A DNA stretch of 64,000 nt from Burkholderiaceae bacterium (lineage in GTDB: Bacteria; Pseudomonadota; Gammaproteobacteria; Burkholderiales; Burkholderiaceae_C): the NCBI GenBank assembly GCA_016790515.1, contig JAEUOY010000015.1, positions 50,995-114,994 of the forward strand. Direction: 5' to 3'. Below, piece by piece: positions 10,581 to 57,791 of the stretch. Under the pieces are notes generated by a model. It saw only the letters and a list, made by a program, of their open reading frames with translations, made no database searches and was not told where the DNA came from. Within the stretch, counting starts at the first letter, position 1, and every line of letters begins with the position of its first letter. Both the position numbers and the translations under genes were made by a program.

Positions 10581-10601
10581 GGTCATCATGCTCCGGTCGA
10601 T

Positions 10602-13129: not shown

Positions 13130-13311
13130 GGCCTCCCGCCGAGCCGCCTCGAGGGAGGCCAGCCCCCCAATGGCACCGCAGGGGCCCGTCCCGGGCCCGG
13201 GGGGCAGCGAACGCACGTGAGCGTGGGGGGTCACGGCCTCCCGACGAGCCGCCTCTAGGGAGGCCAGCCCCCCTGGGGGGGGCAGCGAACGCACGTGAGC
13301 GTGGGGGGTCA
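13130..13311. repeat. duplicated intergenic repeat in the flhA-flhF gap
   Basis: Two direct copies, 13130-13234 and 13235-13311. Each opens with GGCCTCCCG.CGAGCCGCCTC and AGGGAGGCCAGCCCCCC, which can fold on itself, and each ends with GGCAGCGAACGCACGTGAGCG then TGGGGGGTCA. The first copy has about 28 extra bases in the middle. The end of the second copy supplies the flhA stop codon. The GCGAACG...GTGAGCGTGGGGG core resembles REP-like intergenic sequences common in Burkholderiales genomes (recognised from memory). Confidence 0.75.
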
Positions 13312-15432: not shown

Positions 15433-16577
15433 GGCTTGGGCGCCGCTTCAGGGTGCTGCGGGTCGAGGTCGGGCGGCACCGCGATGGCCGGCAGTTCGCC
15501 GGGCATCGCGCCGCGGCCGGACAGCGCCGCGCGCAGCTGGTAGACGTAGGCCAGCACCTGGGCCACCGCCGAGAACAGCCGCGCCGGGATCTCGCGGTCG
15601 ACCTCGCCGTGGGCGTACAGCGCGCGCGCCAGCGGCGGCGCCTGCAGCACCGGCACCTGGTGCTCGCGGGCGATGTCGCGGATCTTCAGCGCCAGCAGGT
15701 CGGCGCCCATGGCGACGATGCGCGGCGCGGCCATGCGGGCCTCGTCGTACTTCAGCGCCACCGCGTAGTGGCTGGGGTTCATCACCACCAGGTCGGCCTT
15801 GGGCACCGCGGCGAGCATGCGCTTGCTGGCCATCTCGCGCATGCGGGCCTTGATGCGGCCCTTGACCTCGACGTTGCCCTCGGCCTCCTTGTGTTCCAGC
15901 TTGACTTCCTGGTGGCTCATCTTCAGCCGCCTGGCCAGCATCATGCGCTGCAGCGGCACGTCGATCGCGGCGAACACCACCAGCAGCACGACCAGCAGCG
16001 CCAGCCCGCCGGCCAGCGTGCGGCCGGTGTGGGCCAGCGCCACCGGCAGCGGCATCTTCAGCGCATCGTGGAAATCGCTCAGGTGGGCGACCAGCCAGCT
16101 GCCGCCGATCACGCCCAGACCCAGGGCCAGCACGCAGGCCTTGGCCAGGTCGCCCAGGTGCTGGCCCGAGACCATGCGGCCCAGGCCGGCCAGCGGGTCG
16201 AGCTTGCCGAAGTTGGGCAGCAGCGGCTTCAGCGTGAAGTTCCAGCCGCCCGAGGCCAGGCTCGCGCCCAGCGCCAGCGCCAGGCCGGCGCCGCCCAGCG
16301 GCAGCAGCACCAGCAGCCAGGCCCGGGTCAGCTCGCCCAGGCGCTGCACCATCGCGCCGTCCTGCGCCAGCAGGGCATGGTCGAAGCGCAGCCCGGCGGC
16401 CAGCAGCCGGTGCAGCCAGTCGCCCAGCAGCGGCATCGCCGCGACCAGCAGCGCGCCGCCGCCGCCGACCACCAGCAGGTGCGCGAGGTCGCGCGAACGC
16501 GCCACCTGGCCCTCGCGGCGGGCCTTGCGGATCTTGCGTTCTGAGGCGGGAAGGTTGCGGTCCTGGGCGTCGGCCAT
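15429..16577 (-). CDS. flhB: flagellar export switch protein FlhB
   Basis: A 382-residue export-gate protein that switches substrate class after self-cleavage of its cytosolic domain. The chosen ATG at 16577 gives MADAQDRNLPASERKIRKAREGQ-type family text; a longer frame to 16616 adds 13 unconserved residues. Four membrane segments are visible. The linker ends in MASKRMLAAVPKADLVVMNPSHYAVAL, where the autocleavage motif reads N-P-S-H rather than the usual N-P-T-H. It overlaps flhA by 4 bases and is transcribed divergently from the giant repeat gene. Confidence 0.96.
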   Translation of the reverse strand: MADAQDRNLPASERKIRKARREGQVARSRDLAHLLVVGGGGALLVAAMPLLGDWLHRLLAAGLRFDHALLAQDGAMVQRLGELTRAWLLVLLPLGGAGLALALGASLASGGWNFTLKPLLPNFGKLDPLAGLGRMVSGQHLGDLAKACVLALGLGVIGGSWLVAHLSDFHDALKMPLPVALAHTGRTLAGGLALLVVLLVVFAAIDVPLQRMMLARRLKMSHQEVKLEHKEAEGNVEVKGRIKARMREMASKRMLAAVPKADLVVMNPSHYAVALKYDEARMAAPRIVAMGADLLALKIRDIAREHQVPVLQAPPLARALYAHGEVDREIPARLFSAVAQVLAYVYQLRAALSGRGAMPGELPAIAVPPDLDPQHPEAAPKP

Positions 16578-16644
16578 GGCAAGGGTGGCCCGGGCCGCAA
16601 GCCCGAGCCATGCCATGGTGCCCGCCGCCCGCGTCCCCCAGGGG

Positions 16645-16758: not shown

Positions 16759-16786
16759 TCAAGTTCGCCGAGCCGGGGCCCGATAA
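16759..16786 (+). promoter_or_regulatory. sigma-28 (FliA) type promoter of the giant repeat gene
   Basis: A -35 element TCAAGTTC at 16759-16766 and a -10 element CCCGATAA at 16779-16786. The TCAA to -10 distance is 16 bases, one more than the 15 seen at motA and cheY. Consensus for sigma-28 is TAAAGTTT then GCCGATAA. The element lies 115 bases before the ATG at 16901 and points the same way. Confidence 0.65.
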
Positions 16787-16900
16787 GCCGACGAGGAACG
16801 CGCCGAAGGTGCCGTCCATGCCCTGCACGGGCCGACGACGCCAGCGCCGCAAGACCCCGAGATTGCTGCAGAAACATTTGCGCCGAAGGACCTTCTGATC

Positions 16901-19900
16901 ATGGCCACCAACATCACGAGCCTGACCCCCGCCGAAATCGCTGCGATGTCGACGGCGCAGATCGCCGCTCTCTCTGCGGCCGACTGGGCAGCGTTCAGCG
17001 TCGACCAGATCGCCGCGCTCACGGTGGAACAGGTCATGGCCATCCCGGCGCAGCGCATCGGCGGCCTGACGGCGACGCAGATGGCGGCCTTCGACCCGAG
17101 CGACTTCGGGGCGATGAGCACGGCGCAGCTGCGCGCGATCTCGACCTCGGCGATGTCGGGCCTGGTCGCGGCCGACCTGGACTCGCTGTCGGGCAGCCAG
17201 CTCAACGCCATCGGCACGGCGCAGATGCGGATCCTGGCGACGGCCGAGGTGGCGACGCTGTCCGGCAGCACGCTGGCCGCGCTGTCGACGGCACAGGTCG
17301 CTGCGCTGTCCTCGCCGCAACTGGAAGCGCTGGGCGCCGGCCAGATCCAGAATCTCGGCACGGCACAGGTCGGTGCCCTGACCTCCCAGCAGCTGAGCAA
17401 CCTCGCCACCGAAGACCTGCTGGCGCTGAACCAGGACCAGTTCACCGCGCTGAGCAGCCGGCAGCTGGCGGCATTGACCAGCACCCAGGTCGGGGTGCTG
17501 TCGGACACGACGATCGCGGCGCTGAACACCGCCCAGCTGCGCGGCCTCAGCACCGCGGCGACCGGCGCGCTGGACTCGGCCGACCTGACGGCGCTGAGCA
17601 GCGTGCAGCTGGCGGCGCTGAGCACCGCCCAGGTGCGCTCGCTCGACGGCGCGGCGCTGGCCGGCCTGGACGCCGACACCGTGTCGCGCTTCGGCACCGC
17701 CCAGGTGGCCGCGCTCGGCACGGCCCAGGTGGCGGCGCTGACCTCGGTGCAGCTGCAGGCGCTCAGCGCCAGCCAGCTGGCGGCGCTGGGCTCGGCCCAG
17801 CTCAGGGCCCTGGGCAGCAACGGCCTGAACGAGCTGACGAGCAGCCAGTTCCAGGCGCTGACCAGCGTGCAGCTGGCCGCGCTCGCCACCGACCAGATCG
17901 CCGGACTGCAGTCCGACGACCTGGCAGCGCTCAGCTCGACCCAGCTGCGCGGCCTGAGCGCGGACGGCATCGCGGCGCTGGACTCGGCGGACCTGGCGAC
18001 GCTGTCGGCCGGCCAGGTGGCCGGCCTGACCAGCAGCCAGCTGCGGGCGATCGACGCCGCCGATCTGCCCGGGCTGGGCACGGCGGCGCTGTCGGCGCTG
18101 AGCAGCGTGCAGATCGCCGCGCTGAGCAGCAGCCAGCTCGCCGCGCTCGGCTCGGAACAGTGGCAGTCGCTGTCGAGCGCGCAGCTGCGCGCGCTGACCA
18201 CGGCCCAGCTCGCCAGCCTGGCCACCGATGAACTCAACCAGCTGACCAGCGACCAGTTCCGCGCCCTGAGCAGCGCGCAGATCGCCGGCCTGACGACCCA
18301 GCAGATCAGCCAGCTCGAGGGCGAGGACCTGGCCGCGCTGAGCACCGCGCAGCTGCGCGGCCTGAGCGCCGGCGGCCTGGCCGCGCTGGACAGCGCCGAC
18401 CTGGCGGTGCTGACCACCGAGCAGCTGGCCGCCCTCGGCTCGGCCCAGTTGCGCGCGATCGAGACGGCCGACCTGGCCGGCATCGAGGCCGGCAAGCTGG
18501 CCGCGCTGAGCTCGGTGCAGATCTCCCAGCTCAGCACCGCCCAGCTCGCTGCGTTGTCCAGCGACCAGCTGCAGGCGCTGTCCACGGCCCAGTTGCGCGG
18601 CCTGACCATCGCCCAGCTGGCCTCGCTGTCGACCGAGGACCTGAACAACCTGAGCGCCGGCCAGTTCGGCGCGCTGACCAGCGCGCAGATCGCCGGCCTG
18701 AGCAGCGCCCAGATCGGCGCCCTCGGCGGCAACCTGCTGGCAGCGCTGGGCACCGCGCAGCTGCGCGCCATCGACGCCGGCGACTTCGCCGCGCTCGACA
18801 GCGCCGACCTCGCGGCCCTGAGCTCGACCCAGTGGGCGGCGATGAACAGCGCCCAGCTCGCGACGCTCGACTCGGCCGACCTCCAGGGCCTGAGCGTCGC
18901 GGCCCTGGCCGGCCTGGGCAGCGCACAGATCGCCGTGCTCGGCAGCGCCCAGCTGGCTGCGCTGTCGTCCGACCAGTTGCAGGCGCTGAGCGGCACGCAG
19001 CTGGCCGGCCTGAGCAGCCGCCAGCTCGCCAGCCTGGCCAGCGATGACCTGAACCAGCTCACGACGGCGCAGTTCGCCGCGTTGGGCACCCGGCAGATCG
19101 CCGCGCTGACCACGGCCCAGCTCGCCGCGCTCGAGAGCGCCGACCTGGCCGCGCTGAACACCGCGCAGCTGCGTGCGCTGGGCGCCCGCGGCATCGCCGC
19201 GCTGGACAGCGCCGACCTGGCCGTGCTCGGCTCGGCCCAGCTGGCCGCCCTGAGCACGACCCAGATCGCCGCGATCGAGACGGCCGACATCCGCGGCGTC
19301 GCGCCGGCCGTGCTGGCCCAGTTGAGCACCGCGCAGATCGCCGTGCTGACCACGGCGCAGATCGACGCGCTGAGCTCCGACCAGCTGCAGGCCCTGACCA
19401 CCACCCAGCTGCGCGCCATGGGCAGCGCCCAGCTGGCCTCGCTGTCCAGCGACGACCTGGGCACGCTCACCGCCAGCCAGCTGCAGGCGCTGAGCACCAG
19501 CCGCCTGGCCGCGCTGACCAGCAGCCAGCTGGCCGCGATGGCCTCCGACGACCTGCAGGCCCTGACCACCGCCCAGGTGCGCGGCCTGTCGACCGCCCAG
19601 CTGACGGCGCTGGGCAGCGAGTCGCTGAACCTGCTGAGCACGACGCAGTTCGCGGCCCTCAGCAGCGCCCAGATCGGTGCCCTGAGCAGCAACCAGATCG
19701 CCAACCTGGCCAGCGCCGACCTGGCCGCGATGAGCAGCGCCCAGCTGCGCGGCCTGAGCACCGGCCAGATCGCCGCGCTGGACAGCGCCGACCTGGCCGT
19801 GCTCGGCAGCAGCCAGATCGCCGCGCTGACCTCGGCCCAGCTGCGCGCGATCGAGACCGCCGACCTGGCCGGCATCAGCGCGGCCAAGCTGGCGCTGCTC

Positions 19901-22900
19901 GGCTCGGCCCAGATCGGCCTGCTGACCACGGCCCAGCTGTCCGCCCTGTCGAGCGACCAGCTGCAGGCGCTCAGCGGCGCCCAGCTGCGCAGCCTGACCA
20001 CCGAGCAGCTGGTCAGCCTGGCCACCGACGAGCTCAACCTGCTCACCTCCGACCAGTTCGCCGCGCTGGGCACCGGCCAGATCGCCGCGCTGACCAGCGC
20101 CCAGATGGGCGCGCTGGAGTCCGCCGACCTGGCCGCCTTGACCACGGCCCAGGTGCGCGCGCTCGAGACGCGTGACCTGGCGGCGCTGGACAGCGCCGAC
20201 TTCGCCGCGCTGTCCAGCACCCAGATCGGCGTGCTGACCACGGCGCAGATCCGCGCGATCGAGACCGCCGACCTGGCCGGCCTGGACCTGCGCGACCTGT
20301 CCGGCGCGCAGGTCGCTGCGCTGACCACCGCCCAGCTGGCGGCGCTGTCCAGCGACCAGCTGCAGGCGCTCAGCAGCAGCCAGCTCGCCGTGCTGACCAC
20401 GGCCCAGCTGGCCTCGCTGGCCAGCGACGACCTCAACGCGCTGACCAGTGCCCAGTTCCGCCAGCTGTCGACGACCCAGATCGCCGCGCTGTCCAGCGTG
20501 CAGATCGGCGCGCTGGCCTCGGACGACCTGGCCGCGCTGACCTCGGCCCAGGTCCGCGCCATCGGCGAGCGGGCGATCGCGGCGCTGGACAGCGCCGACC
20601 TGGCGGCACTGGGCTCGAACCAGCTGGGCGCGCTGACCAGCACCCAGCTCGCCCGCCTGGGCACCGACGACGTCGCCGGCCTGAGCACCGACACCATCGC
20701 CGGCCTGACGTCCGTCCAGGTCGCCGCGCTGACCTCGGCCCAGCTGGCCGCCCTGTCCAGCGACCAGTGGCAGGCGCTCGGCACGGCGCAGCTGCGGGGC
20801 CTGGGCACGGCCCAGCTCGCGGCGCTGTCCAGCGATGACCTCAATACCCTGACCAGCGCGCAGTTCCAGGCGCTGACCACGCAGCAGATCGCCGCGCTCA
20901 GCTCGACCCAGATCGCCAGGCTGGAGTCGGCCGACCTGGCCGCGCTGACCACCGCGCAGATCCGCGCGCTGGACACCCGCGACATCGCCGCGCTCGACAG
21001 CGCCGACATCGCCGCGCTGACCACCGCCCAGCTGGCGGCAATGAACTCGGCCCAGCTGCGCGCGATCGAGACCGCCGACCTGGCCAGCCTGGCCACCGAC
21101 ACGCTGGCCAGCCTCAGCTCGCAGCAGCTGGGCGTGCTCAGCGCCGCCCAGCTCGGCGCGCTGTCGTCCGACCAGCTGCGCGCCCTCAGCAGCAGGCAGA
21201 TGAGCGGCCTGAGCACCAGCCAGCTGGCTGCGCTGGGCAGCGACGACCTGGCGACGCTGAGCACCGGCCAGATCGCCGCGCTGAGCACCGGCCGCATCGC
21301 CGCGCTGACCAACGCCCAGCTGGCCGCGCTGTCCAGCGACCAGCTGCAGTCGATGACCTCGACCCAGCTGCGCGGCCTGAGCACGGCCCAGTTGGCGGCC
21401 CTGGCCACCGACGACCTGAACACCTTCACCAGCGACCAGTTCCGCGCCCTGAGCTCGACCCAGATCGCCGCGCTGGCCAGCGACCAGCTGTCGAAGCTGG
21501 AGAGCGCCGACCTGGCCGCGCTGACCACGCTGCAGCTGCGCGGCCTAGGCGCGCGCGCCCTGGCGGCGCTGGACAGCGCCGACCTGGCCGCGCTCAGCTC
21601 GTCCCAGCTGGCCGGCCTGAGCTCGACCCAGCTGGCCGCGCTGGACAGCGCCGACCTGGTCGGCCTGACCACCGAGACGCTGCGCGGCCTCGGCGCAACG
21701 CAGATCGCCGGCCTGACCAGCAGCCAGCTCGGCGCGCTGGGCTCCGACCAGTGGCAGTCGCTGACCAGCCTGCAGCTGCGCGGCCTGAGCACGGCCCAGC
21801 TGGCCGCGCTGTCCACCGACGACCTGAACACCCTCACTGCCGCCCAGTTCGCGACGCTGGCCACGGCGCAGATCGCCGGCCTGACCAGCGTGCAGATCGG
21901 CGCGCTGGAGTCGGCCGACCTGGCCGCGCTGAGCACCGCCCAGATCCGCGCCATCGACACCCGGGACCTCGGCGCGCTGGACAGCGCCGACCTGGCCGTG
22001 CTGTCCAGCGCCCAGGTCGCGGCCTTCGGCAGCGCCCAGATGCGCGCGCTGGACAGCGCCGACCTGGTCGGCCTGAGCACCGATGCAATGGCCGGCCTGA
22101 GCAGCACCCAAGTCGCCGCGATGAGCAGCGCCCAGCTCGGCGCCCTCGGCACCGACCAGTGGCGGGCGCTGTCGACCGCGCAGCTGCGCGGCCTGGGCAC
22201 GGCCCAGGTGGCCGCGCTGGCCAGCGACGACCTGGCCGCGCTGTCGACCCAGCAGGTGGCCTCGCTGGGCACCGCCCAGGTCGCGGCGCTGACCAGCACC
22301 CAGCTGGCCGCACTCGGCACCGACAACCTCGCCGCGCTGACCGGCACCCAGCTGCGCGCGCTCGACAGCCGCAGCATGGCCGCGCTGGACAGCGCCGACC
22401 TCGGCGCCCTCACCTCCGCCCAGCTGGCGGCCTTCAGCTCGACCCAGCTGGGCGGCCTGGGCAGCGCCGAGATCGGCGGCCTGAGCACCGCGGCGCTCGC
22501 CGGCTTTGGCGGCAGCCAGCTCGCCGGCCTGACCAGCGTCCAGCTGGCCGCCCTCGGTTCCGACCAGTGGCAGTCGCTGTCCAGCGGCCAGCTGCGCGCC
22601 CTCGGCACGCAGCAGATCGCCAGCCTGACCAGCGACGACCTCAACGCGTTGACCACCTCGCAGGTCGGCCTGCTCGGCACCGCGCAGGTCGCCGCGCTCA
22701 CCAGCCGCCAGCTCGGCGCGATGGAGAGTGCCGACCTGGCCGCGCTGGGCTCGGCCCAGGTGCGCGCGCTGGGCACGCTGGCCCTGACCGGCCTGGACAG
22801 CGCCGACCTGGCCGCGCTGGGCTCGGCGCAGGTGGCCGCGCTGACCTCCGACCAGCTGCGTGCGCTCGGCACCGAAGACCTCGCCGGCCTGAGCACCGCC

Positions 22901-25900
22901 GCGCTGACCGGCCTGGGCAGCGCCCAGCTGGCCGCGCTGAGCAGCGCCCAGTTCGGCGCGCTCTCGTCCGACCAGGTGCAGTCGCTGGGGTCCGCCCAGC
23001 TGCGCGGCCTGAGCACCCAGATGCTGGCCGCGCTGGCCAGCGACGACCTCAACCTGCTGACCAGCGAGCAGTTCACGCTGCTCAACACCAACCAGATCGC
23101 CGCCCTCACCAGCAGCCAGCTCGGCGCGATGGAAAGCGCCGATCTGGCCGCCTTGACGTCGGCCCAGATCCGCGCCATCGACCCACGCGCCCTGCAGGGC
23201 CTGGACAGTGCCGACCTGGCCGCCCTGAGCTCGGCGCAGACCGCCGCGCTGACCTCGGCGCAGCTGGCCGCGCTGGGCACCGACGACCTGAGCGGCCTCA
23301 GCGGCAACGCGCTGGCCGGCGTGTCGACCAGCCAGATCGCCGGCATGGGCTCGGCCCAGCTCGCCGCGCTGGGCAGCGACCAGTGGCGTGCCCTGACCTC
23401 GGCCCAGCTGCGCAGCCTGAGCACGCGGCAGCTGGCCGAGCTGGCCACCGAGGACCTGGTCGCGCTGAGCACCGCGCAGTGGCAGGACTTCAGCAGCAGC
23501 CAGATCGGCGCGCTGACCAGCCGCCAGCTCGCCGGCCTGGGCTCCGACCAGCTGCAGAGCCTGTCCAGTGCCCAGTTGCGCGGCCTGTCGACGGCCCAGC
23601 TGGCCAGCCTGGCCACCGACGACCTGAACCAGTTCACCACGGCGCAGTTCGCCGCACTGGGCACGCAGCAGATCGCCAGCCTGACCAGCACGCAGATCGG
23701 CGCACTGGAATCGGCCGACCTGGCCGCGCTCGGCTCGACCCAGCTGCGCGCCATCGACGCCGAGCGTCTCGGCGCGCTGGACAGTGCCGACCTGGCCGTG
23801 CTGTCGTCTTCGCAACTGGCCGGCCTGGGCAGCGCCCAGCTGCGCGGCCTGGACAGCGCCGACCTGGTCGGCCTGGACACCCTGGCACTGTCCGGCCTGT
23901 CGGCGGCGCAGATCGCCGCGCTGACCACGGCCCAGCTGGCCGCGCTGGGCAGCGACCAGTGGCAGTCGCTGTCGACCGCCCAGCTGCGCGCGCTGACCAC
24001 CGAGCAGGTGGCCGGTCTGGACAGCGCCGACCTCACCGCGCTGACCAGCCAGCAGCTGGCCAGCCTGAGCACCGCCCAGGTGGTGGCGCTGACCACGGCG
24101 CAGTTCGCCGCGCTGGACAGCGGCGACATCGCCGCGCTGGGTACCGCCCAGTTCCGCGCGCTGGAGACGCGCGACATCGCCGCCCTCGACAGCGCGGACT
24201 TCGGCGGCCTGTCCACCGCCCAGGCCGCTGCGCTGACCACCGACCAGTTGCGCGCCATCGAGAGCGCCGACCTGGCCGCACTGAACACCAGCGCGCTGGC
24301 GGCCATCGCCGGCACCGGCCTGGCCACGCTGGGCACCCAGCAGCTGGCCGCGCTGGGCAGCGACCAGTGGCAGGCACTGGGCAGCACCCAGCTGCGCTCG
24401 CTGACCAGCGCCCAGATCGCCCACCTGACCACCGAGGACCTGAACGCGCTGACCAGCACCCAGCTCGGCTGGCTGACCACCGACCAGTTGCGCGCGCTGA
24501 CCACCGCCCAGGTCGCCGCGCTGGAAAGCGGTGACATCGCCGCGCTGGCGTCGACCCAGCTGCGCGCGCTGAGCACGCAGCAGATCGTCGCGCTGGACTC
24601 TGCCGACCTGGCCGCCCTGGGCACCGCCCAGGTGGCTGGCCTCGGCTCGGCCCAGTTGCGCGCCCTGGAGACCGCCGACCTGGCCGCCATCTCCAGCGCC
24701 GGCATCGCCGCGCTGGCCACGGCCAACCTGCAGGCGCTGAGTTCGCAGCAGCTCGGCGCACTGGGCAGCGAGCAACTGCTGGCGCTCGGCAGCGCCCAGT
24801 TGCGCGCGCTGTCCAGTGAGCAGCTGACCGGCCTGGACAGCACCGACATCGCCGCCCTCGGCAGCCACCAGATCGCCGCGCTGAGCACCGCCCAGCTGGC
24901 CGCACTGAGCACCTCGCAGATCAATGCCTTGCAGAGCGAGGACCTGGCCGCGCTCTCGACGGCGCAGATCCGCGCCCTGAGCACGGCCGCCATCGCCGCG
25001 CTGGACAGCGCCGACTTCAGCGTGCTGAGCTCGACGCAAGTGGCCGCGATGACCTCGGCCCAGCTCGGCGCCATCGAGACCGCCGACCTCGCCGCCATGA
25101 CCACGGCCGGCATCGTCACGCTGCCCACCGAGGCCCTCAGCGGCTTCAGCACGGCGCAGCTGGCAGCGCTCGGCAGCGACCAGTGGCGTGCGCTGAGCGC
25201 CGGCCAGCTGCGCGGCCTGAGCACGCAGCAGATCGCCAGCCTGACCACCGAGGACCTGGGCGCCCTGACCAGCACCCAGCTGCAGGCGCTGACCACCGAC
25301 CAGGTCGTCGCGCTGAGCTCGGCGCAGTTCAGCTCGCTGGACAGCACCGACATCGCCGCGCTGACCACCGCGCAGGTCCGCGCGATGGAGACGCGCGACA
25401 TCGCCGCCCTCGACTCCGAGGACTTCCTCGCCCTGTCGTCGGCCCAGGTCGCCGCGCTCACCACCGAGCAGCTGCGGGCGATCGAGACCGCCGATCTCGC
25501 CGCGATGACCACGCAGGCCCTGGCCGCCATCGCCAGCGACCGCATCGCCGCGCTGAGCTCGATCCAGCTCGACGCGCTGGGCAGCGAGCAGCTGCGCGCC
25601 CTCGGCGCCGACCAGCTGCGCGGCCTGAGCACGCTGCAGATCGCGACACTGGCCACCGACGACCTCGACAAGCTGACGACCACCCAGCTGGCCGCGCTGA
25701 CCGGCGACCAGGTCGCCGCGCTGACCACGCTGCAGGTCCCCTCGCTGGACAGCAGCGACATCGCCGCGCTGGGCACCGACCAGCTGCAGGCGATGGAAAC
25801 CCGCGACATCGCGGCCCTCGACAGCAGCGACATCCAGGCCCTGACCAGCCTGCAGTTCGGCGCCCTGGGCACCGCCCAGCTGGCGGCGATCGAATCGGCC

Positions 25901-28900
25901 GACCTCGCCGGCATCACGACCAAGTCCCTGGCGGGCCTGGCGCCGGCCAGCCTGGCGGCGCTGAGCACCCGCCAGCTGGACGCGCTGGGCAGCGACCAGT
26001 TCCAGGCCCTGACCACCGACCAGCTGCGCGCGCTCACCACCGCGCAGATGGCCGGCCTGGCCACCGAGGACCTGAACGCACTGACCACGGCGCAGTTCGC
26101 CGCGCTCAGCTCGACCCAGGTGGCCGCGCTGACCACGGCGCAGATCCGGGCGCTGGAAAGCGCCGACCTCGCTGCGCTGCAGGCCAGCCAGGCCGCGGCC
26201 CTGTCCACCCGCGCCATCGTCGCGCTGGACAGCGCCGACACGGCCGCCCTGACCTCGACGCAGCTGGCCGCGTTCAGCACCGCGCAGATCCGCGCCATCG
26301 AGACCGCCGCGCTGACCGGCCTCAGCTCGCAGGCCCTGGCCGGCCTGAGCACGGCGCAGGTCGCCGCGCTGAGCAGCGGCCAGCTGGGCGCGCTGGCCAG
26401 CGACCAGCTGCAGGCGCTGACCACCGAGCAGCTCGGCGGCCTGAGCACGGCGCAGCTGGCCGGCCTGGCCACCGACGACCTCAACACCTTCACCGCCACC
26501 CAGTTCGCCGCGCTGGGCACCGCCCAGGTCGCCGCACTGAGCACGCTGCAGTTCGCCAACCTGGAGACCGCCGACCTGGCCGCCTTCAGCACCGCGCAGA
26601 TCCGCGCCATCGAGACCCGCGACATCGCAGCGCTCGACTCGGCCGAGCTGCGTGCGCTGAGCGGCGAGCAGCTGGCCGCGCTGAGCACGGCGCAGCTCCG
26701 TGCCATCGACTCGGCCGACATCGCGGGCATCCGCGTCAACGCGCTGGAGTCGCTGAGCAGCGGCCAGATCGCCGCGCTGAGCACCGGCCAGCTGGGTGCC
26801 CTGGCCAGCGACCAGCTGCAGAGCCTGAGCGCCCAGCAGCTGGCCGGCCTGACCACGTCCCAGCTCGCCGGCCTGGCCACCGACGACCTCAACACCTTCA
26901 CGGCAAGCCAGTTCGCCGCGCTGGGCAGCGCCCAGATCGCCGCGCTGACCACGCAGCAGTTCGCCAGCCTCGAGACCGCCGACCTGGCGGCCTTCAGCAC
27001 CGCGCAGATCCGCGCCATCGAGACCCGCGACCTCGCGGCGATGGAGTCGTCGGCCATCGCAGCGCTGTCGGGCAGCCAGCTGGCCGCGCTGAGCACGGCC
27101 CAGATCCGCGCCATCGAGACCGGCGACATCGCCGCGATCGGGGTGTCCGCATTCGGCAGCTTCGGCTCGGCGCAGCTGGCCGCGCTGAGCAGCGCCCAGC
27201 TCAACGCCCTGGGCAGCGACCAGATCCGCAGCCTCAGCGCCAGCCAGCTGGCCGGCCTGGGCACCGCGCAACTGGCGGCCTGGGACACCGAGGACCTGAA
27301 TGCCCTCACCGGCAGCCAGTTCCAGTCGCTGGCCACCGCCCAGATCGCCGGCCTGAGCACGCTGCAGGTCGGCGCGATGGAATCGGCCGACCTGCTGTCG
27401 CTGAGCGCCAGCCAGATCGCCGCCATCGCCACCCGCGGCGTCGCCGCGCTGGACAGCGCCGACTGGGCCACGCTGAACGGCAGCTTCGCCGCGGCGCTGA
27501 CCACCGCCCAGGTGCGGGCCATCGAGACCGCCGACATCGCCGGCATCGGCGCGTCGACCCTGGCCGGCTTCGGCTCGGCACAGATCGCCGCGTTGTCGAC
27601 CGCCCAGCTTGCCGCCTTCGCCAGCGACCAGCTGCAGGCCCTCAGCCAGCAGCAGGTCGCCGGCCTGAGCACGGCGCAGATCGCCGCCTTGGCCACCGAC
27701 CAGCTCAACCACCTGACCGCCACCCAGTTCGGCTACCTGAGCACGGCGCAGATCGCCGCGCTGAGCACCGAGCAGGTCGCCAACCTCGAGAGCGCCGACC
27801 TGGCCGCGCTGAGCGCCACGCAGGTGGCCGCCTTCAGCACCCGGGCCATCGCGGCGATGGACAGCGCCGAGATCGGTCTGCTCAGCGCCACCCAGGTGGC
27901 GGCGCTGACGACGGCCCAGATCCGTGCGATCGAGAGCGCCGACATCGCCACGCTGACCGGCTCCGGCTTCAACGCCCTGACCTCGGTGCAGATCGGCGCG
28001 CTGAGCACCGAGCAGCTCGCCGCGCTCGGCTCCGACCAGCTGCAGGCGCTCAGCGCCCGCCAGCTGGCCGGACTGACCACGGCGCAGATCGCCTCGCTGG
28101 CCAGCGACGACCTGAACACGCTGACCGCCAGCCAGTTCCAGGCCTTGTCGACGCGCCAGATCGCCGCGCTGAGCACCGACCAGGTCGGCAACCTGGCGAC
28201 CGACGACCTGGCCGCGCTGAGCTCGGCGCAGGTCCGCGCCCTCGGCGTGGCCAGCATCACCGCGCTGGACAGCGCCGACCTCGGCGTGCTGTCGGCCGAC
28301 CAGATCGCCGGCCTGAGCACCGCGCAGCTGCGCGGCATCGACACCGGCGACATCGCCAGCATCAGCGTCGGTGCGCTGCGGGGCCTGAGCTCGACCCAGA
28401 TCGGCGCCCTGGCCAGCGAGCAGATCGCCGGGCTGGGCAGCGACCAGCTGCAGGCGCTCAGCGACACCCAGCTGCGCGGCCTCAGCGCCAGCCAGCTCAA
28501 TGCGCTCGGCTCCGACCAGCTCGGCACGCTGACCGGCAGCCAGTGGGCCGGCCTGTCGACCGCCCAGATCGCCGCGCTGAGCAGCGACCAGGTGGCCAGC
28601 ATGGCCAGCGACGACCTGATGGCGCTGAACACCGCGCAGATCCGCGCGCTGGGCACCGAGGACATCGTGGCCCTGGACAGCGCCGACCTGTCGGTGCTGT
28701 CGGGCGAGCAGCTGCGCGCCCTCAGCGCCAGCCAGGTGCAGGCCATCGAGACGGCCGACCTCAACGCCCTGGGCAGCGCGCTCAACGGCCTGGGCTCGGC
28801 CCAGATCCGCGCGCTGAGCCAGGCGCAGATCGACGCCCTGGCCACCGACACGCTGCAGGTCCTGGGCGGCGAGCAGATCGGCGCGCTGACCACGCAGCAG

Positions 28901-31900
28901 ATCGGCTGGCTGGACAGCACCGACCTGGGCGCGCTGACCGCCGACCAGCTCGGCGCGCTGAGCACGCTGCAGCTGCGCGCGATCGACTCGGCCGACATCG
29001 GCAGCCTGGCGGCGTCCGCGCTGGGCGGCCTGACGACGGCACAGATCGCGTCGCTGAGCAACGGCCAGCTGGGCGCACTCGGCAGCGACCAGCTGCAGGT
29101 GCTCGGCGACGACCAGATCGCCGCGCTGACCACGGCCCAGGTCGCCTCGCTGGCCAGCGATGACCTGGCCACGCTGACGGCCTCGCAGATCCAGGCCTTC
29201 ACCACGCGGCAGATCGCGGCGCTGGGCAGCGAGCAGATCAACGCCATGGCCAGCGACGACCTGCAGGCGCTGACCGCCTCGCAGATGGCCGGCCTGACGA
29301 CCCGCCAGATCGCCGCGATGCAGAGCGACGACGTCGCGCTGCTGAGCGCCGACCAGATCGGCGCCTTCGGCACCGCCCAGGTGCGCGCGATCGAGACTGC
29401 CGACATCGGCGCGGTCACGGTGGCGGCGCTGGCCGGCCTGCGCTCGGCCCAGGTGGCCGCACTCGGCAACGCCCAACTGGGCGCGCTGGGCAGCGACCAG
29501 TGGCAGGCGCTGACCGACGAGCAACTGCGCGGCCTGACCACCGCCCAGCTGGCGGCGATGGCCACCGACACGCTGAACCGCCTGACCGACACCCAGTTCC
29601 AGATGCTGGGCACGGCGCAGATCGCGGCGCTGACCACCCAGCAACTGCACCAGCTGGAGACCACCGACCTGGCCGCGCTCGGCGCCACCCAGGTGGCGGC
29701 GCTGCGCACTGCGCAGATTGCCGGCCTGGACAGCAGCGACCTGGGCGTGCTGGGCGGCGAGCAACTGGCCGCGCTGGGCAGCGCCCAGCTGCGTGCGATC
29801 GACACCGCAGCCATCGGCGCGATCGCCGTCACGGCGCTGGGCAGCCTGCGCGCCGACCAGATCGCCGTGCTGACCACCGCCCAGCTGGGCGCGCTGGGCA
29901 GCGACCAGTTGCAGGCCCTGAGCCACGACCAGCTGGGCGGCCTGAGCACCGCGCAGCTGGCCTCGCTGGCCACCGACGACCTGAACGCGCTGACCGCCGA
30001 CCAGTTCGGCGCCCTGTCGGCCAGCCAGGTCGCCGGCCTGAGCACGCGTCAGATCAGCCAACTGGAATCGACCGACCTGGCCGCGCTCGGCGGTGACCAG
30101 ATCGCCGCGCTGCGCACCGCGCAGATCGCCGCGCTGGACGCCGCCGACGTCGGCGTGCTGAGCGCCGAGCAGGTGGCCGCGATGAGCACCGCCCAGGTGC
30201 GGGCGATCGAGACCGCCGACATCGGTTCGCTGTCGGTCGGCGCAATCGCCGGCCTCAGCGCGAGCCATGTCGCAGCCCTCGGCAGCGCCCAGCTGGGTGC
30301 GCTGGGCAGCGAGCAGTTGCAGGCGCTGAGCAACGACCAGCTGGCCGCACTGACCACCGCCCAGCTGGCCTCGCTGGGCACGGAGGATCTGAACGCGTTC
30401 AGCGTCGAGCAGTTCCAGGCCCTGTCGCCGGCGCAGATCGCCGGTCTGACGACGCGCCAGGTGTCCAACCTGGAGGCCGATGACCTGGCCGGGCTGTCGG
30501 CCCAGCAGGTGCGTGCGATGAGCACCGCCCAGCTGGCCGCGCTGGACAGCGCCGACCTCGGCGCCCTGAACGGCGACCAGCTCGGCAACCTGACGAGCGC
30601 CCAGCTGCGCGCCCTCGACAGCGCCGACATCCACGGCCTGAGCGTGGACGCGCTGGGCAGCCTGACCGGCACGCAGATCGGCCAGCTGACGACCCGCCAG
30701 ATCGACGCGCTGTCGACCGACCAGCTGCAGGCCCTGTCGGAGAGCCAGATCCTCGGCCTGACCACGGCCCAGATCGGTGCGCTGAGCGACGGCGACCTGG
30801 CGGCGCTGACCGACGCGCAGATCCAGGCCCTGAGCACCGCCCAGGTGGTGGCCCTGACGACCTCGCAGTTCAACCAACTGGCCGACGAAACCTTCAGCCT
30901 GTTCAGCGCGGCCCAGGTGCGGGCGATCGAGACCCTCGACATCGCGGCGATGACCGCCGGCGGCATCGCGGCCTTCAACGCCGAGCAGGTCGCCGCCCTG
31001 AGCACCGCCCAGGTCCGCGCCATCGAGACGGCCGACATCGCTGCGCTGAGCGCCGGCGACCTGCAGGAGTTCAGCGCCACCCAGATCCGCGCGTTCAGCA
31101 CGGCGCAGTTCAACGCGCTGGCCAGCGACGACCTGCAGGCGCTGAGCGCCAGCCAGTTCGCCGCGCTGACCACCCAGCACATCCGGCTGATGGACAGCAC
31201 CGACATCGCGGCGCTGAGCGGCGAGCAGATCGCGGCGCTGACCACGGCCCAGGCCGCGGCGCTGACCACCGCGCAGATCGTCGCGCTGACCGACGACCAG
31301 ATCGGTTCGCTGGAGGTGCAGGACATCGCCGCGATGTCGATGACCCAGGCCACCGCCTTCTCGACCGACGACTACAACCGGATGAGCGGCTCGCAACAAG
31401 CCGCGCTGACGGCGCTGTCGCCGATCGTGCTGGACCTGGACGGCAACGGCGTGAGCACCCGCTCGGCGGCCGAGGGCGTGCAGTTCGACCTGACCGCCAC
31501 CGGCCACACCGGGCAGTACGGCTGGGTCGGCGGCAACGACGGCCTGCTGGTGCGCGACCTCGACCACGACGGCGTGATCAACGACGGCAGCGAACTGTTC
31601 GGCGCGGCCACCCGGCTGGCCGACGGCCGCAGCGCCGGCAACGGCTACGTCGCGATGGCCGCGCTCGACAGCAACCACGACGGCAAGCTGTCGGCCGCCG
31701 ACGCCGCCTTCGGCGAACTGAAGGTCTGGGTCGACGCCAACCACGACGGCAAGACCGACCTGGGCGAGCTGAAGGGCCTGGTCGATCTGGGCATCGGCTC
31801 GCTGGACCTGGCCCACGTCCAGTCGGACGCGGTCGACCACGGCAACGCGGTGGCGCTGCAGGGCAGCTACACCACGGTCGACGGGCAGACGCACCAGATG

Positions 31901-32101
31901 GCCGACGTCTGGTTCGCCCAGACCCAGCGCAGCACCCCGCCGCAGATCGCCGACCTGCTGGCCGACGCCCCGGTCGACGTGCTGTCGGGCGGCCAGGCCG
32001 GTGCCGGCACCGCGGCTGCGGGCAGCGGCGGCAGCACGGCGACGGTGCAGCGCAGCTCGCTGGAAGAGGAACTGCTGCGCAACCAGCAGCCGCTGTTCTG
32101 A
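16901..32101 (+). CDS. giant octad-repeat protein with C-terminal calcium loops; predicted type I secreted surface protein
   Basis: A 5,066-residue protein; the start has AAGGA 10 bases upstream. From residue 9 to about 4840 it is a chain of some 600 octads, consensus x-[ST]-x-[QD]-[LIV]-x-[AG]-L. These form a higher-order unit of 17 octads (136 residues); octad 1 is typically GSDQ[LW]QAL, octad 4 ATDDLNTL, octad 10 xTRDIAAL, octad 11 DSADLAAL, octad 14 ETADLAGL. Octad 1 recurs every 408 bases with almost no drift. The repeats are poor in Lys, aromatics and Cys, and rich in Ser/Thr, Ala, Leu, Gln and Asp. The tail has calcium loops at residues 4845 (DLDGNG), 4886 (DLDHDG), 4923 (DSNHDGK) and 4945 (DANHDGK), then a short G/A/S stretch ending EEELLRNQQPLF. 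No N-terminal signal peptide: this fits C-terminal type I secretion. Function unknown; adhesin, surface filament or motility-related layer are all possible. Confidence 0.9.
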   Translation: MATNITSLTPAEIAAMSTAQIAALSAADWAAFSVDQIAALTVEQVMAIPAQRIGGLTATQMAAFDPSDFGAMSTAQLRAISTSAMSGLVAADLDSLSGSQLNAIGTAQMRILATAEVATLSGSTLAALSTAQVAALSSPQLEALGAGQIQNLGTAQVGALTSQQLSNLATEDLLALNQDQFTALSSRQLAALTSTQVGVLSDTTIAALNTAQLRGLSTAATGALDSADLTALSSVQLAALSTAQVRSLDGAALAGLDADTVSRFGTAQVAALGTAQVAALTSVQLQALSASQLAALGSAQLRALGSNGLNELTSSQFQALTSVQLAALATDQIAGLQSDDLAALSSTQLRGLSADGIAALDSADLATLSAGQVAGLTSSQLRAIDAADLPGLGTAALSALSSVQIAALSSSQLAALGSEQWQSLSSAQLRALTTAQLASLATDELNQLTSDQFRALSSAQIAGLTTQQISQLEGEDLAALSTAQLRGLSAGGLAALDSADLAVLTTEQLAALGSAQLRAIETADLAGIEAGKLAALSSVQISQLSTAQLAALSSDQLQALSTAQLRGLTIAQLASLSTEDLNNLSAGQFGALTSAQIAGLSSAQIGALGGNLLAALGTAQLRAIDAGDFAALDSADLAALSSTQWAAMNSAQLATLDSADLQGLSVAALAGLGSAQIAVLGSAQLAALSSDQLQALSGTQLAGLSSRQLASLASDDLNQLTTAQFAALGTRQIAALTTAQLAALESADLAALNTAQLRALGARGIAALDSADLAVLGSAQLAALSTTQIAAIETADIRGVAPAVLAQLSTAQIAVLTTAQIDALSSDQLQALTTTQLRAMGSAQLASLSSDDLGTLTASQLQALSTSRLAALTSSQLAAMASDDLQALTTAQVRGLSTAQLTALGSESLNLLSTTQFAALSSAQIGALSSNQIANLASADLAAMSSAQLRGLSTGQIAALDSADLAVLGSSQIAALTSAQLRAIETADLAGISAAKLALLGSAQIGLLTTAQLSALSSDQLQALSGAQLRSLTTEQLVSLATDELNLLTSDQFAALGTGQIAALTSAQMGALESADLAALTTAQVRALETRDLAALDSADFAALSSTQIGVLTTAQIRAIETADLAGLDLRDLSGAQVAALTTAQLAALSSDQLQALSSSQLAVLTTAQLASLASDDLNALTSAQFRQLSTTQIAALSSVQIGALASDDLAALTSAQVRAIGERAIAALDSADLAALGSNQLGALTSTQLARLGTDDVAGLSTDTIAGLTSVQVAALTSAQLAALSSDQWQALGTAQLRGLGTAQLAALSSDDLNTLTSAQFQALTTQQIAALSSTQIARLESADLAALTTAQIRALDTRDIAALDSADIAALTTAQLAAMNSAQLRAIETADLASLATDTLASLSSQQLGVLSAAQLGALSSDQLRALSSRQMSGLSTSQLAALGSDDLATLSTGQIAALSTGRIAALTNAQLAALSSDQLQSMTSTQLRGLSTAQLAALATDDLNTFTSDQFRALSSTQIAALASDQLSKLESADLAALTTLQLRGLGARALAALDSADLAALSSSQLAGLSSTQLAALDSADLVGLTTETLRGLGATQIAGLTSSQLGALGSDQWQSLTSLQLRGLSTAQLAALSTDDLNTLTAAQFATLATAQIAGLTSVQIGALESADLAALSTAQIRAIDTRDLGALDSADLAVLSSAQVAAFGSAQMRALDSADLVGLSTDAMAGLSSTQVAAMSSAQLGALGTDQWRALSTAQLRGLGTAQVAALASDDLAALSTQQVASLGTAQVAALTSTQLAALGTDNLAALTGTQLRALDSRSMAALDSADLGALTSAQLAAFSSTQLGGLGSAEIGGLSTAALAGFGGSQLAGLTSVQLAALGSDQWQSLSSGQLRALGTQQIASLTSDDLNALTTSQVGLLGTAQVAALTSRQLGAMESADLAALGSAQVRALGTLALTGLDSADLAALGSAQVAALTSDQLRALGTEDLAGLSTAALTGLGSAQLAALSSAQFGALSSDQVQSLGSAQLRGLSTQMLAALASDDLNLLTSEQFTLLNTNQIAALTSSQLGAMESADLAALTSAQIRAIDPRALQGLDSADLAALSSAQTAALTSAQLAALGTDDLSGLSGNALAGVSTSQIAGMGSAQLAALGSDQWRALTSAQLRSLSTRQLAELATEDLVALSTAQWQDFSSSQIGALTSRQLAGLGSDQLQSLSSAQLRGLSTAQLASLATDDLNQFTTAQFAALGTQQIASLTSTQIGALESADLAALGSTQLRAIDAERLGALDSADLAVLSSSQLAGLGSAQLRGLDSADLVGLDTLALSGLSAAQIAALTTAQLAALGSDQWQSLSTAQLRALTTEQVAGLDSADLTALTSQQLASLSTAQVVALTTAQFAALDSGDIAALGTAQFRALETRDIAALDSADFGGLSTAQAAALTTDQLRAIESADLAALNTSALAAIAGTGLATLGTQQLAALGSDQWQALGSTQLRSLTSAQIAHLTTEDLNALTSTQLGWLTTDQLRALTTAQVAALESGDIAALASTQLRALSTQQIVALDSADLAALGTAQVAGLGSAQLRALETADLAAISSAGIAALATANLQALSSQQLGALGSEQLLALGSAQLRALSSEQLTGLDSTDIAALGSHQIAALSTAQLAALSTSQINALQSEDLAALSTAQIRALSTAAIAALDSADFSVLSSTQVAAMTSAQLGAIETADLAAMTTAGIVTLPTEALSGFSTAQLAALGSDQWRALSAGQLRGLSTQQIASLTTEDLGALTSTQLQALTTDQVVALSSAQFSSLDSTDIAALTTAQVRAMETRDIAALDSEDFLALSSAQVAALTTEQLRAIETADLAAMTTQALAAIASDRIAALSSIQLDALGSEQLRALGADQLRGLSTLQIATLATDDLDKLTTTQLAALTGDQVAALTTLQVPSLDSSDIAALGTDQLQAMETRDIAALDSSDIQALTSLQFGALGTAQLAAIESADLAGITTKSLAGLAPASLAALSTRQLDALGSDQFQALTTDQLRALTTAQMAGLATEDLNALTTAQFAALSSTQVAALTTAQIRALESADLAALQASQAAALSTRAIVALDSADTAALTSTQLAAFSTAQIRAIETAALTGLSSQALAGLSTAQVAALSSGQLGALASDQLQALTTEQLGGLSTAQLAGLATDDLNTFTATQFAALGTAQVAALSTLQFANLETADLAAFSTAQIRAIETRDIAALDSAELRALSGEQLAALSTAQLRAIDSADIAGIRVNALESLSSGQIAALSTGQLGALASDQLQSLSAQQLAGLTTSQLAGLATDDLNTFTASQFAALGSAQIAALTTQQFASLETADLAAFSTAQIRAIETRDLAAMESSAIAALSGSQLAALSTAQIRAIETGDIAAIGVSAFGSFGSAQLAALSSAQLNALGSDQIRSLSASQLAGLGTAQLAAWDTEDLNALTGSQFQSLATAQIAGLSTLQVGAMESADLLSLSASQIAAIATRGVAALDSADWATLNGSFAAALTTAQVRAIETADIAGIGASTLAGFGSAQIAALSTAQLAAFASDQLQALSQQQVAGLSTAQIAALATDQLNHLTATQFGYLSTAQIAALSTEQVANLESADLAALSATQVAAFSTRAIAAMDSAEIGLLSATQVAALTTAQIRAIESADIATLTGSGFNALTSVQIGALSTEQLAALGSDQLQALSARQLAGLTTAQIASLASDDLNTLTASQFQALSTRQIAALSTDQVGNLATDDLAALSSAQVRALGVASITALDSADLGVLSADQIAGLSTAQLRGIDTGDIASISVGALRGLSSTQIGALASEQIAGLGSDQLQALSDTQLRGLSASQLNALGSDQLGTLTGSQWAGLSTAQIAALSSDQVASMASDDLMALNTAQIRALGTEDIVALDSADLSVLSGEQLRALSASQVQAIETADLNALGSALNGLGSAQIRALSQAQIDALATDTLQVLGGEQIGALTTQQIGWLDSTDLGALTADQLGALSTLQLRAIDSADIGSLAASALGGLTTAQIASLSNGQLGALGSDQLQVLGDDQIAALTTAQVASLASDDLATLTASQIQAFTTRQIAALGSEQINAMASDDLQALTASQMAGLTTRQIAAMQSDDVALLSADQIGAFGTAQVRAIETADIGAVTVAALAGLRSAQVAALGNAQLGALGSDQWQALTDEQLRGLTTAQLAAMATDTLNRLTDTQFQMLGTAQIAALTTQQLHQLETTDLAALGATQVAALRTAQIAGLDSSDLGVLGGEQLAALGSAQLRAIDTAAIGAIAVTALGSLRADQIAVLTTAQLGALGSDQLQALSHDQLGGLSTAQLASLATDDLNALTADQFGALSASQVAGLSTRQISQLESTDLAALGGDQIAALRTAQIAALDAADVGVLSAEQVAAMSTAQVRAIETADIGSLSVGAIAGLSASHVAALGSAQLGALGSEQLQALSNDQLAALTTAQLASLGTEDLNAFSVEQFQALSPAQIAGLTTRQVSNLEADDLAGLSAQQVRAMSTAQLAALDSADLGALNGDQLGNLTSAQLRALDSADIHGLSVDALGSLTGTQIGQLTTRQIDALSTDQLQALSESQILGLTTAQIGALSDGDLAALTDAQIQALSTAQVVALTTSQFNQLADETFSLFSAAQVRAIETLDIAAMTAGGIAAFNAEQVAALSTAQVRAIETADIAALSAGDLQEFSATQIRAFSTAQFNALASDDLQALSASQFAALTTQHIRLMDSTDIAALSGEQIAALTTAQAAALTTAQIVALTDDQIGSLEVQDIAAMSMTQATAFSTDDYNRMSGSQQAALTALSPIVLDLDGNGVSTRSAAEGVQFDLTATGHTGQYGWVGGNDGLLVRDLDHDGVINDGSELFGAATRLADGRSAGNGYVAMAALDSNHDGKLSAADAAFGELKVWVDANHDGKTDLGELKGLVDLGIGSLDLAHVQSDAVDHGNAVALQGSYTTVDGQTHQMADVWFAQTQRSTPPQIADLLADAPVDVLSGGQAGAGTAAAGSGGSTATVQRSSLEEELLRNQQPLF
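16925..31420 (+). repeat. 24-bp octad repeat organised as 408-bp higher-order repeat
   Basis: Codon 3 of octad 1 was located at 17339, 17747, 18155, 18563, 18971, 19379, 19547, 19955, 20354, 20762, 21170, 21338, 21746, 22154, 22562, 22970, 23378, 23546, 23954, 24362, 24770 and 25178, then on the same 408-base grid to 28442, and at 28847, 29087, 29255, 29495, 29903, 30311, 30719 and 31127. Steps are 408 bases (17 octads) except 168-base steps (7 octads) at 19379, 21170 and 23378, a 240/168/240 series at 28847-29495, one of 399 and one of 405. Octads are conserved mainly as protein; synonymous codons vary between copies. Confidence 0.9.
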
Positions 32102-32145
32102 GCCTGAGGCGACCGGTACCCGACCCGCGCCGGCCGCCTCCCTGA

Positions 32146-32181
32146 CACGCCGTCCGTCCCGGTCCCGGGACGGACGGCGTG
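32146..32181 (+). terminator. terminator hairpin after the giant repeat gene
   Basis: Perfect 17-base arms (CACGCCGTCCGTCCCGG and its complement) separated by TC, starting 45 bases after the giant gene stop. This is the strongest inverted repeat I found in the window. No T tract follows, so termination may be Rho-assisted; the hairpin would also protect the long mRNA from 3' exonucleases. Confidence 0.75.
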
Positions 32182-32296
32182 CCTGCATCGGGGATTGGCG
32201 GCTGCCGGCCAGGCGCACGGCCGACGCCGGCCGGTGGCCAGGCATGCCGTGGTGCGACGACCCGGCTACCCCGGGTGGTCGATCAGTGCCGGTGCG

Positions 32297-50234: not shown

Positions 50235-50357
50235 GGGGCGCCGCCCCCGCCGCGGCAGGGGCCAGACCGGTGCCAAGTAGACGCCGTGCGCGGCGGCTGC
50301 GATCGGCCGAAACCCGGCGCCTTTCGCCGCCAAATCGGGCGGCTGCGCAACGGCCCG

Positions 50358-55724: not shown

Positions 55725-55811
55725 GGCGGCTCCTGGCGCGGCAAAGGGGCCAGTCATGGTAGGAGCCGGCCTGTCCCGGCGGCGGGCGCATAAGGCCGGC
55801 CAAAGGGACGC

Positions 55812-57764: not shown

Positions 57765-57791
57765 TTATCGGCCGGCCGGCGCCGGACTTGA
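57765..57791 (-). promoter_or_regulatory. sigma-28 promoter of cheY-cheZ
   Basis: On the minus strand TCAAGTCC then GCCGATAA, with exactly 15 bases between TCAA and the -10. The TAA ending the -10 element is the motB stop codon. The element lies 66 bases before the cheY ATG. Confidence 0.75.

Follow-up and report, generated by a model that had tools for sequence, protein, structure and literature searches.

The DNA analysed here, called the window throughout, is a stretch of 64,000 nt from contig JAEUOY010000015.1 (assembly GCA_016790515.1), part of a draft genome of a Burkholderiaceae bacterium (176 contigs, 5.0 Mb, completeness 82%). It contains a giant gene on the plus strand, 16901..32101, which is a single unbroken open reading frame (ORF) of 15.2 kb with an ATG start and a G+C fraction at third codon positions (GC3) of 0.97. 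The product has 5,066 residues (505.8 kDa, pI 4.05). Nearly all of it, residues 9-4836 (16925..31408, +), is an array of about 600 eight-residue repeats (octads) of the ALTTAQ type, including 30 complete units of 17 octads, and this is followed by a calcium-binding domain and a short tail. The gene is divergent from the flagellar gene flhB and is preceded by a sigma-28 (FliA)-type promoter.

Results

The octad array

A preliminary description of the sequence had placed octads from residue 9 to about residue 4840 and had predicted periods of 8 and 136 residues. Both periods were found by autocorrelation of the translation. Residue identity at lag 136 was 0.523, the highest of lags 1-899, with lags 272 and 408 next; it did not exceed 0.247 when the order of the octads was shuffled 200 times. 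Identity at lag 8 was 0.358, against a mean of 0.097 over lags not divisible by 8. Segmentation by dynamic programming gave 603 octads, the alternative count of 604 including a last octad that belongs to the next domain. Gaps that are not multiples of eight residues occur twice within the array and once at its end.

To decode the array into 17 slots, the register has to jump eight times: 10 octads are skipped at three of the jumps and 7 at another, two fall at imperfect octads and two lie near the ends of the array. The spacing of 408 bases between copies, and the copy positions given in the preliminary description, match this decoding, and the break of 168 bases between 23378 and 23546 is the 7-octad jump decoded at residue 2198. 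A run of 220 octads in register contains the stretch from 23546 to 28442 (12 × 408 bases). Each slot has its own character, as had been claimed: the weighted entropy was 1.38 bits, compared with 1.87 bits when the slot labels were shuffled. The repeat had also been called exact. This holds for the spacing but not for the sequence, since neighbouring 17-octad units share 58% of their amino acids and 70% of their nucleotides, and no pair of units exceeds 74% and 81%, respectively. Synonymous changes between neighbouring units numbered 594, about 80% of the 746 expected at saturation. The ratio dN/dS between units (NG86 method; median 0.79, 57 pairs) is of little use because GC3 is 97%, and the register and the synonymous changes were relied on instead.

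There are 1,025 Ser/Thr residues, 139 Arg and just 5 Lys in the array; Cys is absent from the whole protein. GC bias alone may suffice to explain the scarcity of Lys (5 against 139 Arg in residues 1-4840) and the absence of Cys. Two long ORFs run antisense to the array, 16759-27723 (−, 3,654 residues) and 21545-32245 (−, 3,566 residues); they look like a by-product of the GC-rich codons and were not picked by a codon-position screen. Within the genus the open frames vary in length from 1,591 codons to over 6,420. Tandem giant genes were also seen: another octad ORF lies directly upstream of the array gene in two Roseateles loci (L042:2-6097 and L044:2-2158), and in genome G027 (L076) two such ORFs are adjacent.

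Family and predicted fold

The protein was scanned against Pfam as three pieces of 1,333 residues, which together span all but window positions 24899-28099. The octad is that of the family ALTTAQ_rpt (PF20080), with scores of 885.5, 954.9 and 683.6 bits against a curated cut-off of 26.4 and with 53, 56 and 41 matching stretches. In the organism's own genome at least 150 matches were obtained (150 of 219 candidates scored), and all those listed lie within the giant gene. The PF20080 model is 38 positions long and therefore cannot hold the 17-octad unit. PF20080 arrays were detected in four of 150 genomes of the order, a lower bound because only a strict threshold (E 1e-12) was used.

The preliminary description knew of no function for such a repeat. 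This agrees with the literature searched, which excludes most subscription journals and all preprints: no paper using the names ALTTAQ, PF20080 or HeliScrew, and no paper title about an ALTTAQ protein linked to flagella, was found in it. The repeat itself, on the other hand, already has a Pfam name and an entry in the Protein Data Bank (PDB). A profile (A1) of 70 aligned segments, the best 70 of 144 non-redundant ones, was used for the PDB search and as the alignment for AlphaFold. It matched 9zem_A, 'HeliScrew4', with E 1.2e-25. The octad pattern is the same over 109 residues of this 120-residue chain, the likeness being one of sequence. The best 50 of 503 Foldseek matches of the model described below did not include 9zem.

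AlphaFold was applied to 344 residues of the array (window 26333-27364) and gave a model with pLDDT 93.9 and pTM 0.81. It consists of 42 short helices at a spacing of 8 residues, a helix of 4-6 residues in every octad, in keeping with the helix-capping look noted earlier. No close solved fold was found among the best 50 of the 503 Foldseek matches, where mesothelins were the highest-ranked natural proteins (TM ≤0.38, no sequence kinship shown). Against viral models there were three matches at E ≤0.001, with TM ≤0.23.

Leucine-rich repeats matched in the PDB profile search at 3e-11 and weaker, behind 9zem_A, and two of the three pieces exceeded the cut-off of the Pfam family LRR_EndoS (59 and 65 against 27.9 bits). 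Kinship with them was nevertheless rejected because the 344-residue model has no strands, and the LRR_EndoS matches were taken as a chance resemblance of Leu-rich repeats.

A third period of about 3.4 octads

When the number of Asp and Glu residues per octad was followed along the giant array, its Fourier spectrum was dominated by a single peak, with power 103 at a period of 3.39 octads. The maximum power near this period was 104.8, compared with at most 11.7 in 500 octad shuffles, which were scored on a coarser grid. Given the slot averages, permutation of the slot order reached the observed share of harmonic 5/17 in 16 of 20,000 trials. The acidic slots of the 17-octad unit are 3, 6, 10, 13 and 16, with steps of 3, 4, 3, 3 and 4. 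Arg/Lys peaks at the same frequency, 175 degrees from the acidic peak, most of the Arg being found at position 6 of the octads in slots 4, 11 and 15.

The same analysis was made on 26 arrays (the window and 25 loci, of which L033, L034 and L037 are near-copies), and the top acidic period was 3.38-3.43 octads in 18 of them. Arrays with 136-residue units mostly gave 3.39-3.42, and five of the six with 192-residue units gave 3.43 (L033, L034, L037, L039, L040). Arrays in which no long period is clear still peaked near 3.4 (L044 3.41, L052 3.42). The eight arrays outside the range include L051, L053 and L056, whose runs are shorter than 14 octads; the others are L028 (Aquabacterium humicola, 2.13), L029 (2.40, of the 192-residue type), L035 (3.52), L058 (3.34) and L031, which gave 6.81 with a second peak at 3.41.

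The gaps between octads with at least two acidic residues were also counted, in a pool of 26 arrays (1,753 gaps). The pool had been freed of L025, L028, L034 and L037, duplicates of L061, L066 and L033, of L031, L051, L053 and L056, which have too few phased octads, and of L058, which has no acid pairs. Gaps of 3 or 4 octads made up 45% and gaps of 6 or 7 octads 27%, and gaps of 5 and 8 octads were rare (2.1% and 1.7%, against 7.9% and 4.1% after shuffling). Three arrays, L029, L063 and L066, go against the pooled pattern, their share of 3-4 gaps being below that of their own shuffles.

As 17/5 is 3.40 and 24/7 is 3.43, both long units come close to an integer number of one 27-residue turn, and a single number, about 3.4 octads per turn, would account for the 136- and the 192-residue units alike. 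In the sampled series this frequency is inseparable from its alias at 1.42 octads, and 3.4 was taken as the physical one. Acidic octads recur every 3.4 octads or so (27 residues), and this pattern in the sequence suggests that 136 residues correspond to five structural turns. The 136-residue structural unit of the preliminary description is thus supported, with the qualification that the basic repeat looks like the turn of about 3.4 octads.

Promoter and flagellar neighbours

Upstream of the giant gene and on the opposite strand lie flhB (15429..16616, −; Pfam Bac_export_2, E 2e-107), flhA (13309..15432, −; FHIPEP, E 1e-256), flhF (11451..13127, −; SRP54, E 3e-30) and fliA, encoding sigma-28 (9867..10589, −; Sigma70_r2/r3/r4), the last two named from context. 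At 16759..16786 (+), 114 nt before the start codon, is TCAAGT-N15-CCGATAA, a 13/13 match to a pattern that we take to be that of sigma-28 promoters, on general knowledge and on the kinds of genes that it marks. The consensus was derived from the site of the giant gene and its relatives, and the independent test therefore lies in other genes.

The genus was represented by 21 genomes including the organism's own, and flhB orthologues (≥65% identity) were found in 18 of them. An octad ORF adjoins flhB in 16 of the 17 same-genus loci examined (the window and 15 of 16 others). The exception, G013, has no octad ORF in the 668 nt available beyond flhB; G007 was outside the sample. Aquabacterium humicola is one of the organisms in which the array stands beside flhB. 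All 15 same-genus regions with a located start contain TCAAGT-N13-15-CCGATAA upstream at 12/13 or better, eight exactly and seven with one mismatch, a score never reached in 200 shuffles of each region (G018 was outside this count). The site starts at −130 to −147 in 13 regions and at −219 and −233 in the other two.

The exact pattern occurs six times in the 5.0 Mb genome, compared with no matches of the reversed pattern used as a control. One of these sites precedes the giant gene, and the others stand before cheY-cheZ, before fliS-fliT and before three further genes (all but FliS named by eye). The window has just two sites of at least 12/13, the second being at 57765..57791 (−), before cheY (about 57301-57699, −); this cheY was named by sequence, and its counterpart in G012 matches Pfam Response_reg. 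Four further genomes gave 23 exact matches, against none in the reversed control, and all four have the motif upstream of both cheY and fliS. Two have it upstream of the giant gene, and a single instance each was seen before fliD and before a methyl-accepting chemotaxis protein (MCP) gene. Pfam was run on 10 of the 29 genes marked by the motif, and eight matched.

The motif also stands before a DUF1631 gene (L084, L089 and L092; by Pfam for L089, the rest by eye), a small lipoprotein-like gene (L081 and L105, by eye) and HD-domain-like genes (L088 by Pfam, and L097), which are possible further members of the FliA regulon.

Outside the genus 15 loci were considered: sites of 11-13/13 were found in L026, L029, L030, L036, L040 and L043, which include Roseateles, Sphaerotilus and Leptothrix, and the other nine gave 8-10. 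Two of these nine, L031 and L039, open inside the array, leaving 13 that are testable for a promoter.

C-terminal domain and tail

Residues 4841-5006 (31421..31918, +) form a calcium-binding domain that resembles a self-processing module (SPM). A phmmer search matched it to the SPM of FrpC (PDB 6sjw) with E 8.6e-40, and a model of the last 366 residues (pLDDT 83.5) superimposed on 6sjw with a Foldseek TM of 0.82 (target length). In FrpC, calcium-driven folding leads to cleavage of an Asp-Pro bond and the Asp is then joined to a lysine (PMC7078468). The giant protein is homologous to the FrpC module (6sjw, 6sjx) over 166 residues, but at the position of the scissile bond it has Ser4840-Pro4841, Ser replacing Asp. 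All 51 octad-linked frames found (26 + 25, overlapping loci being counted repeatedly) have Ser or Thr before this Pro, and Asp was seen there only in L057, which has no octads. The canonical clip-and-link activity is not expected because Ser/Thr stands in for the scissile Asp. A further difference is that the SPM-type domain lies near the C-terminus of the giant protein, unlike in FrpC.

Relatives of this domain occur mostly in Burkholderiales (Aquabacterium, Roseateles, Leptothrix, Sphaerotilus, Rhizobacter and others), with some in Desulfuromonadales and Nitrosomonadales and one in Moraxella. Its matches in a plasmid search all had less than 60% identity.

Past a disordered linker the protein ends in the tail SLEEELLRNQQPLF (residues 5053-5066; 32057..32098, +), in which the model has a short helix (353-360). 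The tail ends in PL, or PL plus one residue, in 17 of 24 aligned rows, some of which are one residue short. It is a candidate type I secretion signal. In the pieces scanned, hemolysin-type calcium-binding repeats (RTX nonapeptides, rich in Gly and Asp) gave no match, nor did Pfam find cadherin or Calx-beta extender domains.

Export and glycosyltransferase genes

Downstream of the giant gene come a methyltransferase-like ORF, sugar-biosynthesis and glycosyltransferase genes, and then genes for type I export, 17-22 kb away: a TolC-like outer membrane efflux protein (OEP; 48831..50333, −; Pfam OEP, E 6e-29), an HlyD-type membrane fusion protein (50358..51593, −; HlyD_3, E 4e-19) and an ABC transporter (51601..53907, −; ABC_tran, E 2e-30, and ABC_membrane, E 2e-21). 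They are followed by a gene for a TPR-containing GT41 glycosyltransferase resembling O-GlcNAc transferase (53943..55757, −; Glyco_transf_41, E 2e-73), a candidate modifier of the array, and by cheY, motB and motA. The only GT41 gene found in the genome, 82% complete, at E 1e-20 is that of the window. The frame at 32297-34000 (−) encodes a 567-residue protein with no Pfam match (E 0.01) and a 38% homologue downstream of the array in L024.

Up to 10 kb downstream were surveyed at 35 loci with the C-terminal domain; L057 has no octads, and there are none in the available part of L045. A GT41 homologue follows on the same strand within 3 kb at nine of the 35, and within 150 nt in L050, L053, L055 and L056. 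ABC genes were found at nine loci (two on the opposite strand), HlyD genes at five and OEP genes at six (four on the opposite strand), and 16 have at least one of the four kinds.

The C-terminal domain was matched in 18 of the 20 other genomes of the genus; G014 has neither this domain nor GT41, and G017 has GT41 only. Strong arrays were found in three other members of the order: in G164 and G093 the octads and GT41 are 2.3 kb and 8.4 kb apart, respectively, and in G131 the two are on different contigs. GT41 is present in all four array genomes, compared with 42 of 150 genomes drawn from the same order, the numbers being small. G131, which has an octad array, also contains a frame of 1,968 codons with several successive GT41 stretches (G131:C79:2-4804).

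Discussion

On balance it is probable, if only modestly so, that the product of the gene is a giant surface protein belonging to the flagellar (FliA) regulon and secreted by a type I system, which acts as a solenoid fibre or adhesin and is probably glycosylated; export, glycosylation, fibre formation and adhesion are the parts of this proposal that we infer. The octads would wind into a solenoid, about 3.4 of them to the turn, in which an acidic stripe runs along one face and Arg residues line the opposite one. FliA would activate the gene at a late stage of flagellar assembly. The chain, probably O-glycosylated beforehand by the linked GT41 enzyme (the array being rich in Ser/Thr and very poor in Lys), would be exported unfolded by the ABC-HlyD-OEP system encoded downstream, and extracellular calcium would then fold the C-terminal cap. 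The resulting screw could form a long fibre, its faces allowing copies to bundle or to bind a partner, and might serve as an adhesin or a spacer of swimming cells. If each turn rises by about 1 nm, as assumed here, some 177 turns would span roughly 0.15-0.2 μm.

A more specific version, which we put forward as a speculation that is rather improbable as a whole, is that a glycosylated screw of this length is deployed through FliA, that its opposed acidic and Arg faces zip neighbouring molecules into bundles, and that the SPM-type cap is a calcium-folded anchor and not a clip-and-link enzyme.

Several observations weigh against the proposal of a FliA-controlled, type I-secreted and glycosylated surface protein. 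By itself, the opposed Arg/Lys pattern failed to reach significance when the slot order was permuted (1,216 of 20,000). As for the promoter, no site scoring at least 11/13 was found in the stretch examined at the organism's own flagellin gene (L085, G000:C140), so the motif is not on every late flagellar gene, and outside the genus only six of the 13 testable loci have a site of 11-13/13. Orthologues of the window's flagellar genes were not found near arrays outside the genus (tblastn, E 1e-8, with short upstream sequence). No Lap-type N-terminal retention module was found in the pieces scanned, the octads starting at residue 9. The GT41 gene lies on the same contig as, and less than 30 kb from, a match to the C-terminal domain in only eight of the 18 genomes, which are drafts (G002, G005, G006, G008, G011, G012, G016 and G020, some of the matches being weak or not linked to flhB); in G015 the distance is 80 kb, and in nine genomes the gene is on a different contig. 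The enzyme could also act on flagellin instead.

It is less probable, though still to be taken seriously, that the protein is an ordinary ALTTAQ secreted surface protein of a polysaccharide or adhesin island and that the flagellar locus and FliA-type promoter do no more than time its expression. In Leptothrix sp. C29 (L035) the array is followed by GT41, ABC, HlyD and OEP genes and the upstream ORFs resemble, by eye, polysaccharide-export genes; L053, L055 and L056 have GT41, ABC and HlyD genes after the array, and orthologues of the window's flagellar genes were not found there. The constancy of the locus argues the other way, with flhB adjoining in 16 of 17 cases and the promoter present in 15 of 15 within the genus, as do the strong sites in six loci beyond it.

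The period of 3.4 octads might not be a structural turn at all but a relic of the growth of the units by duplication of blocks of 3, 4, 7 or 10 octads. Register jumps of 7 or 10 octads do exist, lags of 56, 80 and 192 are prominent in relatives and a few arrays peak away from 3.4. This seems unlikely, however, as the acidic gaps favour 3, 4, 6 and 7 octads and avoid 5 and 8 across 26 arrays that differ in their long periods, and as L044 and L052 peak near 3.4 with no clear long period.

That the flagellum itself contains the protein as a structural component or uses it to gauge length (a filament-associated sheath or fibre, or a molecular ruler) is very unlikely. The neighbouring flhB, the promoter and a length that varies between species would fit such a role, but the C-terminal domain and the ABC, HlyD and OEP genes point to type I rather than flagellar export, the spread of lengths within one genus is wide and flagellar orthologues were not found near arrays outside it.

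An ice-binding or ice-nucleating surface, brought up in the preliminary description for the two-level repeat in multiples of eight, would fit the Ser/Thr at fixed positions but is extremely improbable: a beta-solenoid is a defining feature of ice-nucleation proteins, whereas the 344-residue model is helical and has no strands, and the pieces scanned had no ice-nucleation Pfam match. An assembly artefact, which the same description had left open, or a decayed gene can practically be dismissed despite the draft state of the genome, because the frame is open over 15.2 kb, the units are too divergent for a collapse, synonymous change between neighbours being about 80% of saturation, and nine same-genus loci in other assemblies have similar long arrays.

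Comparison with known systems

Among published proteins, the one closest in role is FrhA, the flagellum-regulated hemagglutinin of Vibrio cholerae, a large RTX-family adhesin whose gene is regulated as a class 4 flagellar gene in the classical strain O395, where its expression is lowered when FliA is missing; its regulation differs in strain A1552 (PMC6890996). The giant protein resembles FrhA in its size and in the adhesin role and flagellum-linked control proposed here. FrhA is described with cadherin and Calx-beta repeats and an N-terminal retention module cleavable by LapG, none of which was found in the pieces of the giant protein scanned.

For the pairing of a giant surface protein with a GT41 partner, a candidate one here, the nearest analogue is HMW1 with HMW1C, the GT41 enzyme that glycosylates this giant adhesin in the cytoplasm before export (PMC3983070). 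HMW1 has two-partner secretion and an N-linked sugar, and HMW1C lacks the TPR fold, whereas the locus in the window has type I genes and a GT41 of the TPR type. The giant protein may act in a similar way to these two adhesins, but it is a member of neither kind: the repeats, the N-terminus and the linked export genes differ. The present case gives the ALTTAQ family a testable job, with a place in the flagellar regulon, type I export and a GT41 partner. If this is true, a giant helical solenoid would join the few known flagellum-regulated adhesins and would provide a natural model for long protein screws.

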